Made by a program: the position numbers and the translations under genes. This document shows positions 861 to 35,094 of a DNA stretch of 36,623 nt, piece after piece. The notes under the pieces were generated by a model. The model was not told the DNA's origin. It searched no databases and saw only the letters and a program-made list of their open reading frames with translations. Source of the DNA: Clostridiales bacterium (lineage in GTDB: Bacteria > Bacillota > Clostridia > Tissierellales > GPF-1). The stretch covers positions 1-36,623 of the forward strand of contig JABXKS010000095.1 in assembly GCA_013619125.1 (NCBI GenBank), given 5' to 3'. How positions within the stretch are numbered: position 1 is the first letter of the stretch; every line of letters starts with the position of its first letter.

Positions 861-892
861 ATAAAAAACTGCCCATCTCTCGATGCGCAGTT
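861..892 (-). terminator. Riboswitch expression-platform terminator
   Basis: On the minus strand AACTGC-G-CATC, loop GAGA, GATG-G-GCAGTT form a hairpin (867-892) followed by T's (861-866). It lies between the aptamer and the gene at 182-808. Its 5' arm overlaps the 3' end of the aptamer, whose GGCTAACTG can pair with CAATTGGC at the aptamer's 5' side. Aptamer closure would therefore compete with the terminator, which predicts an ON switch with c-di-GMP. The direction of control is inference. Confidence 0.75.
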
Positions 893-960
893 AGCCGATC
901 TCCGTTCCCGAAGACACTTCACTTTGCGTCCTACCCTTACAGATAGTTTGCCAATTGTTT
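888..960 (-). ncRNA. Cyclic di-GMP-I (GEMM-I) riboswitch aptamer
   Basis: The minus strand shows the GEMM-I landmarks in order: GGCAAAC; a short stem CTATCT/GGGTAG capped by a GTAA (GNRA) tetraloop; GGACGCAAAG; then a second stem region with TCTTCG and CGGAGA; and a closing segment GGCTAACTG. The string GGACGCAAAG together with the GNRA-capped stem is highly characteristic of this class. The second half (P3) departs more from the usual consensus. The aptamer is followed by a terminator and then the exported split-barrel gene. Confidence 0.8.
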
Positions 961-1006
961 CACATACTTCTTACCCAATAAATTCCCCACTTATTTAAAA
1001 AGAACC

Positions 1007-24693: not shown

Positions 24694-24731
24694 CATATTC
24701 CATTATCGGCATATGTCAATTTAGTCATATG
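24694..24731 (+). repeat. Three CATAT repeats at a 16-bp period, probable ArsR-type operator
   Basis: CATAT(T/G) occurs at 24694, 24710 and 24726, exactly 16 bp apart; the second and third are CATATG. They lie between the -10 box and the start codon of an ArsR-family regulator, where an autoregulatory operator is expected. Confidence 0.55.
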
Positions 24732-24740
24732 GAGGCCTCC

Positions 24741-25127
24741 ATGCAAACAAATCTATTAAAAGCCCTTGGTGATGATACCCGATTGCGAATTCTGCGGCTG
24801 CTTCTGATTCAGCCCTTTTGCGTAACTGAGATCATGCATCTTTTGGACTTGACACAAACCAATACATCCAAGCAATTGGGGAAACTGAAAAAGACAGGTA
24901 TTATTGAAACCCGTCGAAACAATGGATTTACCTATTATCAATGGTCAACTCGTTTTCAATCGGAAGAAACAGAATGGACAAAGGCAATCACAAAGATGCT
25001 AAACGCCTCGTCGATCTCTCCCGACGATCGTGAACGAACCCAAACATACTTGGACGGAAATTACGGCTGCAAAGATTTGATGGTAGATGATACCCTCCTT
25101 CGACAGCTAGAAGAATTCAAAAAATAA
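24741..25127 (+). CDS. ArsR-family winged-helix repressor
   Basis: A 128-residue ArsR/SmtB-type regulator: LLKALGDDTRLRILRLL, FCVTEIMHLLDLTQTNTSKQLGKLKKTGIIETRRNNGFTYYQW. The usual ELCVCDL metal motif is reduced to PFCVTEI. The only cysteines are Cys27 and Cys110, so the inducer site is atypical and could use these two. The start is the ATG after GGAGG; an ATG four codons upstream would place the site inside the gene. It is first in an operon with a permease and two thioredoxin-like proteins, which it probably represses. Confidence 0.88.
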   Translation: MQTNLLKALGDDTRLRILRLLLIQPFCVTEIMHLLDLTQTNTSKQLGKLKKTGIIETRRNNGFTYYQWSTRFQSEETEWTKAITKMLNASSISPDDRERTQTYLDGNYGCKDLMVDDTLLRQLEEFKK

Positions 25128-25142
25128 AGGCAGGCGATATTT

Positions 25143-26111
25143 ATGTTTACTTGGTTAGACAACCTCATTACCCTATTTGTGGAAGGTCCCCTCGGACTAT
25201 CCCGGGCAACCGCGTTGGGCGATAGCGTCCATTTCTTTTTCTTCGATGTAATCAAGATCATCATTTTATTAAGCTTTATGATCTTCACCATTTCCTATAT
25301 CAGAAGCTATTTTCCACCAGAACGCACCAAACAAATGCTTGAAAAAGTCGGCGGACTAAAGGGTCATATCCTGGGCGCCTTGTTGGGCATCGTAACACCA
25401 TTTTGTTCCTGTTCTTCCGTCCCGATTTTTATCGGTTTTGTCGAGGCAGGCGTTCCATTGGGTGTTACCTTTTCCTTTTTAATCACCTCGCCCATTGTCA
25501 ATGAAGCGGCTTTTGCCATTCTCTTGGCTTCCTTCGGTTGGAAGCTCGCCCTGCTCTACGTGGTTTGCGGTGTTGCAGTCGGCGTCATCGGTGGAATCCT
25601 GATCGGTGTATTGAAGCTGGAATCCCAGGTAGAGGAATACGTCTATCAGATGCAGATGGGACATGCTGACATCCCTGACATGACAAGTTCAGATCGTGTT
25701 CATTTTGCGATTGATCAGGTGAAGGAAATTATTGAACGAATCTGGCTCTTCTTATTGATCGGAATCGGTCTTGGCGCAGCCATTCATGGCTGGGCGCCGG
25801 AAGCTTGGTTATCTGCTAATGCAGGACCGGACAATCCTCTCGCCGTTATCTTTGCGACGGCTGTCGCCATTCCACTTTATTCCAATGCCTTGGGTACCAT
25901 TCCCATCGCGGAAGCTCTGATTATGAAAGGGGTCGGCATCGGCACCGCCATTGCTTTTATGATGGCAACAACTGCTCTGTCCCTACCGGAAATGCTCTTG
26001 TTGCGCAAGGTCATTAAACCCAAATTAATTTCAGTCTTTGTCGCCATTGTCGGGACCTCTATTATCTTAGTCGGCTACCTGTTCAATGCAACCGCACATC
26101 TTTTAATTTAA
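25143..26111 (+). CDS. ArsP-like permease (DUF318 family)
   Basis: A 322-residue integral membrane protein with about eight hydrophobic segments. TPFCSCSSVPIFIGFVEAGVPLGVTFSFLITSPIVNEAA is the hallmark of the DUF318/ArsP family, some members of which export trivalent organoarsenicals. The two cysteines of CSCS are candidate metalloid ligands. The second half has IPLYSNALGTIPIAEAL, a repeat-like counterpart. It lies 15 bases after the ArsR gene and before two CxxC mini-thioredoxins, a common arrangement. The true substrate cannot be told from sequence. Confidence 0.88.
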   Translation: MFTWLDNLITLFVEGPLGLSRATALGDSVHFFFFDVIKIIILLSFMIFTISYIRSYFPPERTKQMLEKVGGLKGHILGALLGIVTPFCSCSSVPIFIGFVEAGVPLGVTFSFLITSPIVNEAAFAILLASFGWKLALLYVVCGVAVGVIGGILIGVLKLESQVEEYVYQMQMGHADIPDMTSSDRVHFAIDQVKEIIERIWLFLLIGIGLGAAIHGWAPEAWLSANAGPDNPLAVIFATAVAIPLYSNALGTIPIAEALIMKGVGIGTAIAFMMATTALSLPEMLLLRKVIKPKLISVFVAIVGTSIILVGYLFNATAHLLI

Positions 26112-26144
26112 TCCGTTTCTATGCTGACTTGAGAGGAGAAAACA

Positions 26145-26372
26145 ATGAATATTAAAATTTTAGGTACCGGATGTAAAAAATGCAAAAAACTAGAGGCCAA
26201 CGCGCGCGAAGCCGTTGAAGAGCTTGGGCTTGATGCCGTCATCGAAAAGATCGAAGACATCCAAGGCATTATGAGTTATAAGGTGATGTCCACCCCAGCC
26301 TTGGTCGTCGATGAAAAAGTTGTATCAGCTGGCAAGCTCCTTTCTACAAAAGAAATCAAAGCGTTTTTGTAG
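26145..26372 (+). CDS. Small thioredoxin-fold redox-active disulfide protein (copy 1)
   Basis: A 75-residue Thioredoxin_3-type protein: MNIKILGTGCKKCKKLEANAREAV with a CxxC active site at residues 10-13 and the cis-Pro motif MSTPALVVDEKVV. It probably donates or accepts electrons for the adjacent permease system or for metalloid handling. AGGAG precedes the ATG, 33 bases after the permease. It is paralogous to the next gene. Confidence 0.88.
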   Translation: MNIKILGTGCKKCKKLEANAREAVEELGLDAVIEKIEDIQGIMSYKVMSTPALVVDEKVVSAGKLLSTKEIKAFL

Positions 26373-26475
26373 AAAGCATCGTCTCAACGATCGTACTCCC
26401 TCTTAAGCAATCTACGCTGAAGAGGATACATAGATAAAAACAATGACTCAACTTACCCGTAAAGGAGAAAATACG

Positions 26476-26703
26476 ATGAACATCAAAGTATATGGCATGG
26501 GATGCAAAAATTGCGAAATCGTCCATGAAAATGTAAAAAAAGTGGTTGCGGAAATGAATCTTGACGCAACAATTGATTACATCACCGAACTGCAGGAAAT
26601 TTTAGCAGCCGGAATCATGGCGACTCCAGCTCTCGAAGTGAACGGTAAAGTCGTTTCAAAAGGCAAGGTTTTAAAACCGAATGAAATCAAAAAGTTTTTA
26701 TAA
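26476..26703 (+). CDS. Small thioredoxin-fold redox-active disulfide protein (copy 2)
   Basis: A 75-residue paralogue of the preceding protein: MNIKVYGMGCKNCEIVHENVKKVV with CxxC and the cis-Pro motif MATPALEVNGKVVSKGKVL. The start is the ATG after AAAGGAG; a frame eleven codons longer lacks a site. The 103 bases between the copies hold nothing recognisable. It ends at a terminator, closing the operon. Confidence 0.87.
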   Translation: MNIKVYGMGCKNCEIVHENVKKVVAEMNLDATIDYITELQEILAAGIMATPALEVNGKVVSKGKVLKPNEIKKFL

Positions 26704-30497: not shown

Positions 30498-30540
30498 AGA
30501 GCTAATTTTCTATATTCATAGGGAATTAGCTCTTTTATTT
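30498..30540 (+). terminator. Terminator after the NAGPA-protein gene
   Basis: AGAGCTAATT pairs with AATTAGCTCT (30524-30533), with an inner CTAT/ATAG pairing, followed by TTTTATTT. Confidence 0.85.
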
Positions 30541-30563
30541 GTCTATTGCGCGTATATTTAGGG

Positions 30564-30645
30564 TATATTGTACGCGTAAAAACATGGTAAAACCGAAGGA
30601 CCAATAAACCCGCAATCCTTGATGGTTGTGGGGTTATTGTTTTTT
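30564..30645 (+). ncRNA. Possible small RNA ending in its own terminator
   Basis: A TATATT box (30564-30569, weak TTGTCT 19 bases upstream) is followed by about 70 bases without a coding frame. They end in a long imperfect hairpin (30602-30618 with 30624-30639) and six T's. Since an upstream terminator has already closed the previous gene, this second terminator suggests a separate short transcript. It does not match a riboswitch class I recognise. Confidence 0.3.
30602..30645 (+). terminator. Second intergenic terminator
   Basis: CAATAA-CCC-CAA-CC pairs with GG-TTG-GGG-TTATTG with small mismatches, followed by TTTTTT. Confidence 0.75.
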
Positions 30646-30658
30646 ACGACCACTGTAA

Positions 30659-30702
30659 GTTTAATGTAAATTTAATCTTCTGTTAAACTGGACTTAAAGC
30701 GC
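30659..30702 (+). promoter_or_regulatory. Pho-box-like array: four TTAA repeats at 11-bp period
   Basis: TTAA cores stand at 30661, 30672, 30683 and 30694, exactly 11 bp apart, and the array ends directly at the -35 box. This phase and placement match the direct repeats bound by PhoP/PhoB response regulators. The target operon makes glycolipids, which fits phosphate-sparing lipid exchange. Binding is inference. Confidence 0.6.
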
Positions 30703-30731
30703 TTGACATACAATGATTTCAGCAAGATAAT
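30703..30731 (+). promoter_or_regulatory. Promoter of the glycosyltransferase operon
   Basis: TTGACA (30703-30708) and GATAAT (30726-30731) are 17 bases apart, about 80 bases before the start codon. Confidence 0.8.
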
Positions 30732-30775
30732 ATACCCATTGGTTTTAAACGACGTTCGTGTCGTTAAAAACAACC

Positions 30776-30798
30776 GAAATGATCGATGAAATCATTTC
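30776..30798 (+). promoter_or_regulatory. Leader hairpin just before the ribosome binding site
   Basis: GAAATGAT, a 7-base loop and ATCATTTC form a perfect 8-bp stem ending two bases before the AAAGGA site. A second, weaker stem (ACGAC/GTCGT) precedes it in the leader. Either could modulate translation. Confidence 0.4.
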
Positions 30799-30812
30799 AG
30801 AAAGGATCTGCT

Positions 30813-32996
30813 ATGAAAACCATTTTGCTTTTAACCGCTTCAACCGGTGGTGGTCATAACCAAGCGGCAAACGCTCTGAAAGAAATCTACAGCCAACAAG
30901 GCTATCAAGTTGAAACCATGGATATCTTTAGGGACAGCAATGAAAAGCTGGATTCTATTATGGTGGAAGGGTACGCCTTTTTGGCGACAAAAATGCCAAA
31001 AACCTATGGAGATCTCTATTGGCTCTCCAATCGAAAAGCTGTAAACAAACCCTTTTGTGACGTAATCGCACGGAAGGTCTGGCGAAGTCTGAACCAAAAA
31101 ATCCTAGAAACGAATCCCGAATTGATCGTCTCCACGCATCCCTTTGCCGTTGAAATCATGGCAAAGCTGAAACGACAGACACGTCTTCGTTGTCCCTATC
31201 TCGCCGTGGTCACTGATTTTATCGCCCATCAAACTTACCTAAGCCCGGCTGTTGATGGCTATATTGTCGGTAGTGAATGGACGAAACAAGATTTGATTCA
31301 GAAAGGCATTCCTTCAGAGATCATCCATGCATACGGAATCCCTACAAGAAAAGAATTCTATACCCCGTCAATCGGACGAGGATTCTCCGGAGAGATGAAA
31401 GTCTTAGCCATGGCAGGGTCGCTTGGTCTGGAAGAAATGGCTGATTGCCTCGATGTCTTGCTATCGGATACCCACTCAAATGTAACTGCCGTATGCGGCA
31501 ACAATCAAGCCTTATACGATCTCCTACTCCATCAGTTTCCTCAAGAAATCAAAGAAGAACGTTTAACCCTATACGGATTCACAAAAAATATCCGTGAATT
31601 GATGGACACCCATGACTGCATCATCACAAAACCCGGCGGGCTGACGACAACAGAATCCATTCTTCGTCAAATCCCCATGATCATTCCCTTTATGATTCCG
31701 GGACAGGAAGCCGAAAACACGGAGTTTTTAGTCGAAGAGGGCATGGCAATCCATGTTCAATCCGCAGACGACTTGGCCGAACAAATTCACCAATTGGAAC
31801 GCCATCCACACCGCCTTCCCCTTATGCGCGCCCGCATGAAGGTGATTGCCCAGACATACTCGCCCGCTGCGATCTTCGCTTTATCGGATCGAATGATCCA
31901 GAAACAGCATGAAAAAGTACTGATTTTCAACGCCGGGTTTGGCGCCGGCCATCAAATGGTCACAGATGCCATTGAAGAAGAGTTTTCTGCGCATTTTCAA
32001 ACTGCATCCATAAAAGAGATTGATTTGATGGAATGGCTAATGCCTCAATTCTCTCAGTCCATCTATCATGGGTATCGCTATTTTGTAAAAAATTATGAAT
32101 CTCTTTACAATCGATTCTACGAAGAAAAAGAGACCGATGATCTCTCTTCAATGTTATTTGCCAAACTCGCGCAAAAAAAGGCGAGTCGATTGCTGGCGAA
32201 AGAAACACCAGCCTTATTGATCTCCACCTTCCCAATCTGCACCCAGGTGCTTGGGACTTGGATTGAAAAGAAGGGCAGTAAAATCCCGCTGATTACGGTT
32301 ATTACCGACGTCACCTCCGCTTCGGAATGGATCCATCCCGCCGTGACTCATTACTTGGTTGCCAGCGAAAGCGTTGAGAGCGAGCTGATCAAAAAAGGCG
32401 TCGATCCAAATCGAATTTCTGTTACGGGGATCCCTGTGCGTCGCGCGTTTCAATTGCAGAAAAAAAGAGAAGTGCGAAGAGTACACGCGCCCATTCGGCT
32501 TCTTGTCATGGGTGGCGGATTGGGTCTTCTACCGGAAGACCATACCCTATATCGCTGGCTCTCAGATGACACAAGCATCGATGCAACCATAATTACCGGA
32601 CACAACCATAAAGCCTTCCAGAGCCTGAAGAGCCTCTATCCCAGCCTAACCGTCAAGGGATTTGTCCACGATGTCGCAGGAGAAATGAAACAAGCTGACC
32701 TGCTTTTGACAAAGCCAGGCGGAATTACGCTGTTTGAGGCAATCCATGTGGAGATCCCAATTCTTGCCTATCGCCCAACCCTTGGCCAGGAACAAAAGAA
32801 TGCGAAATTCATCGAAAAAATGGGCATCGGCCAAAGTGTCTTCACAACAGGAGAAATATTAAAGGCCATTGACACCTACAAGTCGAATCAAGCCATCTAC
32901 CAGGCACGCTCTCAAATGGCAACGATCCATACAGGACTAAGCGATGCGAGCGAAGAAATCTGGCAGCAATTACTTGAAAACCGTTTCAATGTATAA
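30813..32996 (+). CDS. Tandem-duplicated UgtP/MGDG-synthase-like glycosyltransferase
   Basis: A 727-residue protein formed by two complete copies of a GT28/MGDG-synthase-type enzyme. Copy 1 (1-365) has LLTASTGGGHNQAANAL, the acceptor-side VETMDIF, and CIITKPGGLTTTESILRQIPMI with the GQEAENTEFL loop. Copy 2 (about 368-727) has LIFNAGFGAGHQMVTDAI, IKEIDLMEWL, LLLTKPGGITLFEAI and GQEQKNAKFI. Single-copy relatives add glucose or galactose to diacylglycerol at the membrane. Both halves keep the KPGG sugar-nucleotide motif, so both may be active, perhaps making a diglycosyl lipid in one chain. AAAGGA supports the ATG at 30813. First gene of a four-gene envelope operon. Confidence 0.88.
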   Translation: MKTILLLTASTGGGHNQAANALKEIYSQQGYQVETMDIFRDSNEKLDSIMVEGYAFLATKMPKTYGDLYWLSNRKAVNKPFCDVIARKVWRSLNQKILETNPELIVSTHPFAVEIMAKLKRQTRLRCPYLAVVTDFIAHQTYLSPAVDGYIVGSEWTKQDLIQKGIPSEIIHAYGIPTRKEFYTPSIGRGFSGEMKVLAMAGSLGLEEMADCLDVLLSDTHSNVTAVCGNNQALYDLLLHQFPQEIKEERLTLYGFTKNIRELMDTHDCIITKPGGLTTTESILRQIPMIIPFMIPGQEAENTEFLVEEGMAIHVQSADDLAEQIHQLERHPHRLPLMRARMKVIAQTYSPAAIFALSDRMIQKQHEKVLIFNAGFGAGHQMVTDAIEEEFSAHFQTASIKEIDLMEWLMPQFSQSIYHGYRYFVKNYESLYNRFYEEKETDDLSSMLFAKLAQKKASRLLAKETPALLISTFPICTQVLGTWIEKKGSKIPLITVITDVTSASEWIHPAVTHYLVASESVESELIKKGVDPNRISVTGIPVRRAFQLQKKREVRRVHAPIRLLVMGGGLGLLPEDHTLYRWLSDDTSIDATIITGHNHKAFQSLKSLYPSLTVKGFVHDVAGEMKQADLLLTKPGGITLFEAIHVEIPILAYRPTLGQEQKNAKFIEKMGIGQSVFTTGEILKAIDTYKSNQAIYQARSQMATIHTGLSDASEEIWQQLLENRFNV

Positions 32997-33015
32997 AAGA
33001 GAAAGGAGGATGATG

Positions 33016-33729
33016 ATGCGGATATTATTGATCTCAAGCATCACAATCATTTTAAGTTACCAATTGGTCCCAAATCTCATTGAGCGACATTTCAATCCGC
33101 ATGTCATTCGTCGTTTTTCAACGCAGAAAAATGAGATCGCTCTGACCTTTGACGATGGACCCAGCCCGGTCTATACACCTGATCTCTTGGATCTCCTGAA
33201 AGAGCAGGGCGTTCACGCAACCTTTTTCCTTGTCGCAGAAAATGCGCAAGCACACCCTGAAATCGTAAAGAGAATGGCGGAAGAAGGCCATGCCATCGGA
33301 CTTCACTCTCTGAATCATCGCGGGTTTTGGCTGGAAACACCAAAACAGACCCGTCTGGATTTTGAAGAATCGCTTCAAATTTTTCAAGACCTGAATATCG
33401 AGCTTATAGGCTTTCGACCGCCTTGGGGAACCTTCAATGCCCTCACCCGTCATTACGCGAGTAAAGCCGGACTCCCCATCTACCTGTGGAGCCGAAATGC
33501 AAAGGACTGGGAGATCGAAACACAACCGTCCGATATCGTCTCGAGAATCACACAAAACCTCACTGCAGGGGAAATCATCGTCCTGCATGATGCCGGTGGT
33601 GATCCACAAGCGCCCGAGCATACCATTGAAGCCTTGGGTACAATCCTGCCTCAAATGAAAAAGACTTTCCGCTTTATCCCTCTAAAAGGAGGCGAATCCC
33701 GTGAACTGGATACAACACCTGTTTCATAA
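33016..33729 (+). CDS. Polysaccharide deacetylase (NodB family), membrane-anchored or secreted
   Basis: A 237-residue protein with an N-terminal hydrophobic segment (about 2-18) and a NodB domain: ALTFDDGPSP (catalytic Asp-Asp), GLHSLNHRG (metal His pair), IGFRPPWGTFN, LWSRNAKDWE and GEIIVLHDAGGDP (catalytic His). It removes acetyl groups from peptidoglycan or another N-acetyl glycan outside the membrane. Three ATGs stand in a row after AAAGGAGG and the third has the best spacing. The open frame extends back into the previous gene without a site. It overlaps the next gene by 29 bases. Confidence 0.9.
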   Translation: MRILLISSITIILSYQLVPNLIERHFNPHVIRRFSTQKNEIALTFDDGPSPVYTPDLLDLLKEQGVHATFFLVAENAQAHPEIVKRMAEEGHAIGLHSLNHRGFWLETPKQTRLDFEESLQIFQDLNIELIGFRPPWGTFNALTRHYASKAGLPIYLWSRNAKDWEIETQPSDIVSRITQNLTAGEIIVLHDAGGDPQAPEHTIEALGTILPQMKKTFRFIPLKGGESRELDTTPVS

Positions 33730-34198
33730 GCTGGACCAACACATTATCCATAAAAATCATTGGCTTCACATTCCGGAAGCACCTTCTTTTTACGGAGTAG
33801 AACGTCCATACAAAGGCGCGCCTCTTTCATTTGAATCGATAACCCTGAATCCAGGTGATCGGATTGTGGAGCTTCATCTCGACAACAAAAAACTGATGGC
33901 AGAAGGGTTGACTCCCCCACAATTATTCCGTAGAATCCGGCTAGAAGTTCAAATCCTGAAACTTCTCCTCCCACAAAGGTATCCCGATGCAAAAGGGTAT
34001 TACGGGGTGAGTGTCTTTGGACCACTCTTAAGACGGCTGGGTTTTGAACTCCATCCCTATCCAAGGATGATTCAAGGCTTCTTTATTGGCCTGTGGGAGA
34101 ATGGAATCCGCTGGATCCACGGCAGTGCATTCAAGTGGCACTCTCCCCATGTCCTATTTCTGGGATCCGCGAATCAAGAAACGAGGCAAAAACCATGA
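33701..34198 (+). CDS. YkoP-like protein of the deacetylase operon
   Basis: A 165-residue protein starting with GTG after AAAGGAGG. It has GDRIVELHLDN, LFRRIRLEVQILKLLLPQ and YYGVSVFGPLLRRLGFELHPYP, resembling the Bacillus YkoP-type proteins that are often next to, or fused to, polysaccharide deacetylases. The biochemical role is unknown. It has no signal peptide or membrane segment. It overlaps the deacetylase by 29 bases and the next gene by 4 bases (ATGA), so the three are translationally coupled. Confidence 0.72.
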   Translation: MNWIQHLFHKLDQHIIHKNHWLHIPEAPSFYGVERPYKGAPLSFESITLNPGDRIVELHLDNKKLMAEGLTPPQLFRRIRLEVQILKLLLPQRYPDAKGYYGVSVFGPLLRRLGFELHPYPRMIQGFFIGLWENGIRWIHGSAFKWHSPHVLFLGSANQETRQKP

Positions 34199-35094
34199 AG
34201 CAGAAAATCTTTCTGATTTTACCTATTATTTTGCTCTTGATCACGGGGATCCTCCTTGGAACCAATCCAGAATTTCCAGGTATTCTTACAGCCCTAACCA
34301 TGGTGGGGCAATACTACAGCGCTATTACACCCTTTGCATCGGGGGGGCAGCCCGCGCAAATCCTCTCCATGACAGCAAAAAAAATACCCATTGGGCGGGC
34401 GACTTCCTTACTGATGGTAAAATTTCTAATTTATCAGATCTGCGTCGTGCTTTACGCCTTTGGCTTTTTTGCATGGGAATATCGATTTGTACGCGCTACT
34501 CTAGCCACTAGTTTTCCTTGGATTTTGCTGGGTTTGATTCTCAACGGCTTATTGATTCTTCTGATCTTCCTCTCGCTTATCAAGCGACCTTGGTTGGAGC
34601 GCCAAATCAACCGGCTGCTGACTTGGCTTGGCGGGGAAAAAAGGAACTTCAAAGAAAAACAATGGAAAAACAAAATACATCAAAGCCTTGATGATTATGA
34701 ACAGAGCGCGAAGGCTGTAAAAGATTCTCCCATCCTTGCCGGAAAAGTGTTTATCCTGACACTCCTGCAATTGACCGCTTTTTTCGCGGTGTCATGGGCA
34801 ATCTATCACTCCTTTGGGTTTTCTCATACCGGGATTCCTAGGATTTTGGCTTTGCAAGCCCTGCTCTATATGGCGATCTCCTTTATACCAACCCCAGGGA
34901 ATGCCGGCGCTTCAGAAGGCGGATTCATTCTGGTCTTTCAATTGCTCTTTTCTGGCGCTACCTTGATGCCAGCCATGCTACTCTGGCGATTGATCACCTA
35001 TTACCTCAATCTTCTTTTCGGTGGCATAGTCACCCTCTACGACCATTGGGAGTGTTCACAATTGATCACAAAAAAAGCATCATCCGTCGGATGA
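34195..35094 (+). CDS. Flippase-like membrane protein (UPF0104/LPG-synthase transmembrane family), short N-terminus
   Basis: A 299-residue polytopic membrane protein. VGQYYSAITPFASGGQPAQI near residue 40 and SFIPTPGNAGASEGGF near the end are hallmark blocks of the UPF0104/MprF-transmembrane family, thought to flip lipids or lipid-linked sugars. The first block normally lies 80-90 residues in, after two or three membrane helices; here only one helix precedes it, so one or two helices appear to be missing. The start (ATGA overlap with the YkoP-like gene) is well fixed. The last codons and stop lie in a terminator palindrome shared with the convergent gene. Confidence 0.82.
   Translation: MKQKIFLILPIILLLITGILLGTNPEFPGILTALTMVGQYYSAITPFASGGQPAQILSMTAKKIPIGRATSLLMVKFLIYQICVVLYAFGFFAWEYRFVRATLATSFPWILLGLILNGLLILLIFLSLIKRPWLERQINRLLTWLGGEKRNFKEKQWKNKIHQSLDDYEQSAKAVKDSPILAGKVFILTLLQLTAFFAVSWAIYHSFGFSHTGIPRILALQALLYMAISFIPTPGNAGASEGGFILVFQLLFSGATLMPAMLLWRLITYYLNLLFGGIVTLYDHWECSQLITKKASSVG

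Follow-up and report, generated by a model that had tools for sequence, protein, structure and literature searches.

Operon and promoter region

The window, i.e. the whole stretch of DNA analyzed (36,623 bp), is contig C95 of the 3.42-Mb draft genome of a Clostridiales bacterium (G000) and was compared with two congeneric genomes (G001, G002). On its plus strand it carries an operon headed by a gene for a 727-amino acid protein (30813–32996), in which two GT28 glycosyltransferase halves of the MGDG synthase type (MGDG_synth) are fused, with the motifs kept in both halves. The protein passed the PF06925 cut-off with two stretches (217.8 vs. 25 bits), in agreement with the earlier note, which had described the first gene of the operon as MGDG-synthase-like. 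ATG 30813 was taken as start codon because a congeneric match begins there and a GAAAGGA stretch lies ahead of it. Downstream follow genes for a polysaccharide deacetylase (PF01522; ORF limits 32944–33729, true start probably near 33013), a YkoP-domain protein (PF22790; 33701–34198) and a flippase-like membrane protein (LPG_synthase_TM; PF03706, TIGR00374; ORF limits 34093–35094), all on the plus strand. Elsewhere, the window contains a c-di-GMP-I riboswitch (883–962, minus strand; RF01051, 50.2 bits, cut-off 35) and, at 24729–26703, consecutive genes for an ArsR-type regulator, an ArsP-like permease and two small CxxC-motif proteins, which may form an export cluster linked to metalloids or thiols.

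The tandem GT28 fusion in one chain was present in all three genomes of the genus examined, and seven genomes from other families (G010, G012, G013, G026, G028, G041, G057) encode the two halves as adjacent genes. The order synthase-synthase-deacetylase-YkoP-membrane protein was read from open frames, without profile search, at the loci L138, L139 and L140, and partial versions of it were read at L141–L143. The window protein belongs to the same GT28 fold family (PF06925) as the UgtP-type diglucosyl-diacylglycerol synthases and the plant MGDG synthases, and its matches in the PDB were 9wde and 4wyi. It differs from both types by its two fused halves and by scores below the NCBIfam equivalog cut-offs for UgtP (399 vs. 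500 and 292 vs. 557 bits), and since it falls below these cut-offs, its lipid product is one that we infer.

Upstream of this gene, four 7-bp units with a period of 11 bp form an array at 30660–30699: TTTAATG (30660–30666), TTTAATC (30671–30677), GTTAAAC (30682–30688) and CTTAAAG (30693–30699). Their TTAA cores start at 30661, 30672, 30683 and 30694, i.e. at the exact 11-bp spacing reported before. The exact pattern of four TTAA cores separated by N7 occurs at one place in the draft genome, with about 0.0005 occurrences per genome expected under independence, as estimated from a 139-kb sample. The four-core pattern never appeared when the 381-bp intergenic region was dinucleotide-shuffled 20,000 times, and three cores appeared in 16 of the shuffles. 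Arrays with two mismatches were no commoner than those of a reversed-pattern control (5 vs. 8 in G000, 11 vs. 19 in G001, 11 vs. 16 in G002), so that the 11-bp period by itself is unremarkable and the claim stands on this one array and its conservation. Another two-mismatch array (C31, G002:C20) was rejected, lying partly within the end of an upstream coding frame. Also, a palindromic reading as two head-to-head pairs (TTAA is the same on both strands) was dropped as unneeded given the direct-repeat relatives of the array.

The array precedes the orthologous gene in both congeneric genomes of the set of relatives. Identity over 30660–30699 was 35/40 to G001 and 36/40 to G002, while the four-fold degenerate sites of the gene were identical at 98/247 and 147/262 positions, respectively, i.e. 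at 40–56%. Across the three genomes 27 of the 28 unit columns are invariant and 5 of the 12 spacer columns; judged by unit columns far more constant than spacers, the array is under selection. In G002 the locus is split, with an exact 33-bp repeat over units 1–3 on both arms (C47:4036–4068 and C18:15666–15698; loci L062, L068, L177 and L178). As read by eye, one arm adjoins an IS21-type transposase frame and the other an island containing transposase-like and PHP/ATPase-like frames. We read the split as an insertion that spared the operator at the operon.

Directly behind the array, TTGACA (30703–30708) and GATAAT (30726–30731), 17 bp apart, form the promoter that the earlier note had claimed at this position (P2, 30703–30731, plus strand), agreeing with the promoter consensus at 11 of 12 positions. 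Both hexamers are retained in G001 and missing in G002. Common to all three congeners is ACATA-S-AAT, and in each of them CTTAAA of unit 4 lies 10 bp from TACAAT (30709–30714, plus strand; TAGAAT in G001). This hexamer, kept in the three congeners and at a distance enriched in other Clostridia (see below), is proposed as the −10 element of a regulator-dependent promoter P1, which we infer to be overlapped by P2 in two of the three species. Between promoter and start codon, the leader contains two inverted repeats (30744–30800) that may form RNA hairpins; both persist in G001 with changed letters, and the shorter leader of G002 is devoid of them.

The array might also act as an AT-rich, helically phased UP element aiding RNA polymerase at P2, with no regulator involved. 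Units 3 and 4 would be placed relative to P2 as a UP element is, and P2 is close to consensus as described above. However, G002 keeps the array and has no P2, the flanks of the units are conserved letter by letter, and closely similar sequences stand ahead of regulator operons, which makes a UP element extremely unlikely and a regulator-bound operator the preferred reading.

Comparison with pst promoters

The earlier note had taken the array for a PhoP/PhoB box by which phosphate starvation would switch on the operon. In the genus, the pst cluster has the order regulator-kinase-pstSCAB-phoU, contiguous in G001 and G002 and on two contigs in G000; its regulator is PhoB-like yet remains under the PhoB cut-off (242 vs. 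296 bits). As read by eye, the pstS promoters of the genus contain units CTTTACA, CTTWACA, a degenerate third unit and CTTAACR, spaced at a period of 11 bp; a −10-like hexamer follows 10 bp past the last unit. The array is alike in its 11-bp repeats, in unit number and in the 10-bp gap to the −10 hexamer, whereas its units (TTTAATG/TTTAATC/GTTAAAC/CTTAAAG) differ and are without TTWAC. Thereby, of the initial reading the promoter-proximal OmpR/PhoB-type site of 11-bp period is retained, and its identity as a Pho box is not.

A four-unit pst box, TTAACA-N5-TTAACA-N5-TTAAC followed by CTNAACA, was found in 30 of 31 pstS upstream regions, the exception being L084. All 22 aligned pst boxes carry C in both unit 1 and unit 2, at positions occupied by T or A in the array. 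A C after TTAA, as in the pst-type TTWAC, occurs in none of the four array units on the plus strand and in one of four on the minus strand (TTAACA). With a pst matrix, the pst boxes of the genus, which had helped to train it, reached 24.1–31.7 bits, and the arrays reached 7.5 (G000), 3.5 (G002) and 6.0 bits (G001, minus strand).

Two models were used for searches, R1 built from the array and R2 from the 22 aligned pst boxes. R2 located pst in the three genomes (E 8e-6 to 3e-5), and the array was absent from its genome-wide matches; since scoring in that search covered 150 of 799 first-look candidates, the argument is carried by the R2 searches of window and loci. In these, neither the window nor any of 25 homologous glycosyltransferase loci gave a match at E ≤ 10, and with filters switched off the score at 30500–30900 was 4.7 bits or less. 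Conversely, R1 matched no pst box over 34 loci. By its sequence, the array is not a Pho box, a reading rejected on the unit sequence, with its missing invariant C, and on the lack of cross-matches between R1 and R2; PhoP/PhoB as regulator and phosphate as signal are left unsupported.

A true PhoP/PhoB site with relaxed units, through which phosphate starvation would induce the operon, would account for the geometry that the array shares with the pst promoters. Moreover, each array unit agrees at five of six positions with TTHAHA, the consensus of Bacillus subtilis PhoP, and the 7.5 bits of the array are the top score of the pst matrix in the window. Against such a site stand the much higher scores of the pst boxes on the same matrix, the missing C, the failure of R2 to match the locus and the conservation in the congeners of just those letters in which the array departs from pst boxes, so that we consider it unlikely and retain an operator of a different OmpR/PhoB-family regulator.

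Pho-box-like repeats precede single UgtP-like genes of another genus and family, at L033:1413 (20.7 and 14.2 bits), L032:2588 (minus strand; 10.9 and 4.4 bits) and L034 (14.7 bits), none of them among the R2 matches listed. These loci would be a better place to seek phosphate-controlled glycolipid synthesis.

Related promoters and the candidate regulator

A first contig scan using the whole fusion protein gave no match; relatives were collected with the first synthase half, taking the best 80 of 145 in the named genomes searched. Runs of at least three exact TTAA cores at 11 bp were present within 300 bp upstream of 6 of the 80 genes, one of them in G002, compared with 0.13 expected from shuffles. 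Of 82 upstream regions, 19 (including three from the window genus) had three TTAA-like units with exactly N10 to a −10 hexamer, against an expectation of 0.3. When periods and gaps (the latter from 5 to 16) were scanned at 79 clostridial loci outside the genus, the combination of period 11 and gap 10 was found at 16 loci, reported as 11 sequence clusters because several of the 79 come from one genome or from close kin, and each of the remaining 83 period/gap cells contained 0–5 loci. At the other 63 of the 79 loci no such array was present within 320 bp; scored with the forward matrix described below, they had a median z of 0.48, and two reached 3. Counted over the last three units at 17 selected loci, three of which belong to the genus, the base following TTAA was T 21, G 16, A 10 and C 4 times (n = 51), unlike the C of the pst boxes.

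Searched against the three genomes of the genus, R1 returned the three orthologous arrays plus a partial copy in G002 (E 8e-8), and weak matches on contig C60 of G000 (E 0.13), at two sites in G001 (0.34, 0.53) and at one in G002 (1.9), of which only that on C60 was operator-like on reading. Over 63 homologous loci it gave two matches, neither at an array (L241 252–283, L231 4211–4284). With its tandem 11-bp units, fixed distance to the −10 hexamer and conservation, the array is predicted with near certainty to be an operator of an OmpR/PhoB-family response regulator.

At two Fusibacter loci (L226, L240) and one of UBA6806 (L233), the gene preceded by the array has an OmpR-type regulator and then a kinase-like frame downstream, with the Pfam check covering L226. 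Among 14 regulators of G000, the one on contig C121 was the best match to the L226 regulator (47%, 207 bits; next 179). In a tree of 41 regulators, from which those on C93 and C61 were excluded and which was midpoint-rooted for drawing only, it was the sole one of 13 G000 proteins in an ArlR-like clade (15 rows, support 94/93), and PhoP was placed in a separate group (97/91). Its receiver matched that of ArlR (6is1) with 143 bits over 117 residues, above the YycF receivers; the name ArlR-like is due to this receiver match, and among PDB matches over the full length, RegX3, MtrA and PhoP of Mycobacterium score higher.

The C121 operon has the order DUF4342-DUF4342-regulator-kinase, and its counterpart in Tissierella sp. 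P1 is DUF4342-regulator-kinase. With the sequence TCTAATGAAATTTTAATCTTCAGTTAATAATCTTTTAAT-N10-TATTAT, the Tissierella regulator promoter is close to the array, and it was the single match of R1 over 32 regulator loci (E 0.88). In Clostridium aestuarii, TTTAATCAAATTTTAATTT is common to a regulator promoter and a glycosyltransferase promoter. The site of the C121 operon itself consists of TTTCAT-type units (TTTAAC/CTTCAT/TTTTTT/TTTCAT), and its promoter is conserved in the three congeners (53/55, 50/55) and reaches z 4.17 with the forward matrix described below. A link of an ArlR-like system or of DUF4342 to UgtP-like synthase operons was not found in the open-access literature, among the matches listed.

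The likeness between both groups of promoters was computed in two directions. The forward matrix was built from 10 glycosyltransferase promoters of other genera; as these had been picked by a TTAA-based scan, its cores are biased; the scan treated ArlR-like regulators no differently from the others. Counted as ArlR-like were regulator matches of at least 205 bits, minus L263 (the gene of the query itself) and L269 (window genus). Of 11 ArlR-like regulators, 8 had z ≥ 2.5 within 1 kb upstream and the remaining three stayed below, and of 17 other regulators 1 reached that value (one-sided p 1.8e-4; medians 3.0 vs. −0.01). L285, the single exception, stands in the tree inside the ArlR-like clade, a placement that is unsure because of its long branch. 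On the promoters of the window genus the forward matrix gave z values of 2.85, 3.57 and 0.44 (G002), and on pst regions a median of 1.2 and a maximum of 3.7.

Eight regulator-operon operators of other genera served for both the reverse matrix and a model R3. The reverse matrix ranked the array highest in the window, and all three species had their arrays among the six best entries of 313 kb of genus sequence (partly overlapping). The best entry was a site on contig C84 before a gene for a 70-amino acid membrane protein, and a G001 site was fifth; the C60 site, before a gene for a 90-amino acid membrane protein, and the C121 promoter ranked lower, amid unrelated sites. For R3, the array was the only match in the window (E 0.0016, over units 1–3), the best match in G000 (E 0.47; 150 of 559 first-look candidates scored) and, with its two copies, the best two matches in G002 (E 0.18, 0.19), the genome-wide E-values being non-significant alone. 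The G001 copy and the C121, C84 and C60 sites were not among the R3 matches listed. When R3 was run over 66 of the 82 glycosyltransferase loci, C. aestuarii, G000 and G002 gave the top three matches, and over 49 loci with pst or other regulators none of nine weak matches was at a pst box. Set aside were matches at G000:C125, G001:3418703 and G002:C9, which represent one orthologous promoter without the array; of the other R3 matches, those at L301, L305 and L308 are located within open frames.

Another OmpR-family regulator might use the array instead, for example the VanR-like one on contig C36 (L111 in G000; also L149 and L150), whose own promoter has CTTAAA and TAAAA stretches at 11 bp, partly conserved in the three congeners, and resembles units 3–4 of the window array (NTTAAA-N5-CTTAAA). 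This regulator falls outside the ArlR-like clade, however, and units 1–2 (TTTAATG/TTTAATC) are closer to the operators of ArlR-like regulators, so that control by it appears very unlikely. The likeliest regulator of the array, and probably the one driving this glycolipid/envelope operon from the predicted operator, is the ArlR-like regulator encoded on C121.

Proposed control and known systems

Regulators of the OmpR/PhoB type recruit RNA polymerase from sites just ahead of the −10 region. With four units on one helix face and the last one 10 bp before the −10 hexamer, the array would be such an operator. The phosphorylated C121 regulator would bind there in response to an envelope-type signal and activate the glycolipid operon from P1, with TACAAT as the −10 hexamer used, and the overlapping consensus promoter P2 would provide a basal level in the species having it.

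Operator-like sites with TTTAATC/TTTCATC units and 10 bp to a −10 hexamer were also seen on C84 (L113:1419–1473) and C60 (L125, around 2744, minus strand), and the genes for the 70- and 90-amino acid membrane proteins are possible further targets. We tentatively suggest, as a wider reading of these sequence comparisons that is quite possible, that the level of membrane glycolipids is set throughout the Clostridia by an ArlR-like two-component system, whose genes accompany those for DUF4342 proteins or the synthase gene itself, via a four-unit operator of the TTTAAT type, the regulon here comprising the fused synthase operon, the C121 operon and the two membrane-protein genes. If true, this would be a phosphate-independent envelope-homeostasis regulon for glycolipids. 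For the glycolipid/envelope operon of many Clostridia, the guess of a phosphate switch is replaced by a specific and testable regulator.

TTAA cores are known from several regulators, among them PmrA with the site YTTAAK. The window array resembles the CiaR promoters of streptococci, which, according to PMC3091779, have NTTAAG-N5-TTTAAG and a −10 region ten bases after the last repeat. The final G, given there as an invariable feature of CiaR sites, is missing from the array units (TTTAAT, TTTAAT, GTTAAA, CTTAAA); some relatives have it, for example C. aestuarii (GTTAAG-N5-CTTAAG-N10-TATACT). The SaeR site GTTAAN6GTTAA (PMC5083920) and the CtrA site TTAA-N7-TTAA (PMC9437464) have the core and the 11-bp period of the array in other lineages and with other regulators, the comparison concerning spacing alone. 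Since TTAA cores at 11 bp thus serve CiaR, SaeR and CtrA, the regulator cannot be read from the core; it is the letters following the core that identify it and distinguish the operators of one OmpR-family regulator from those of another. ArlRS of Staphylococcus aureus, whose ArlR receiver is similar to that of the C121 regulator (6is1, 143 bits over 117 residues), controls the envelope glycosyltransferase gene tarM through MgrA, according to PMC11708061, and control of an envelope glycosyltransferase is likewise what we propose for the window operon.
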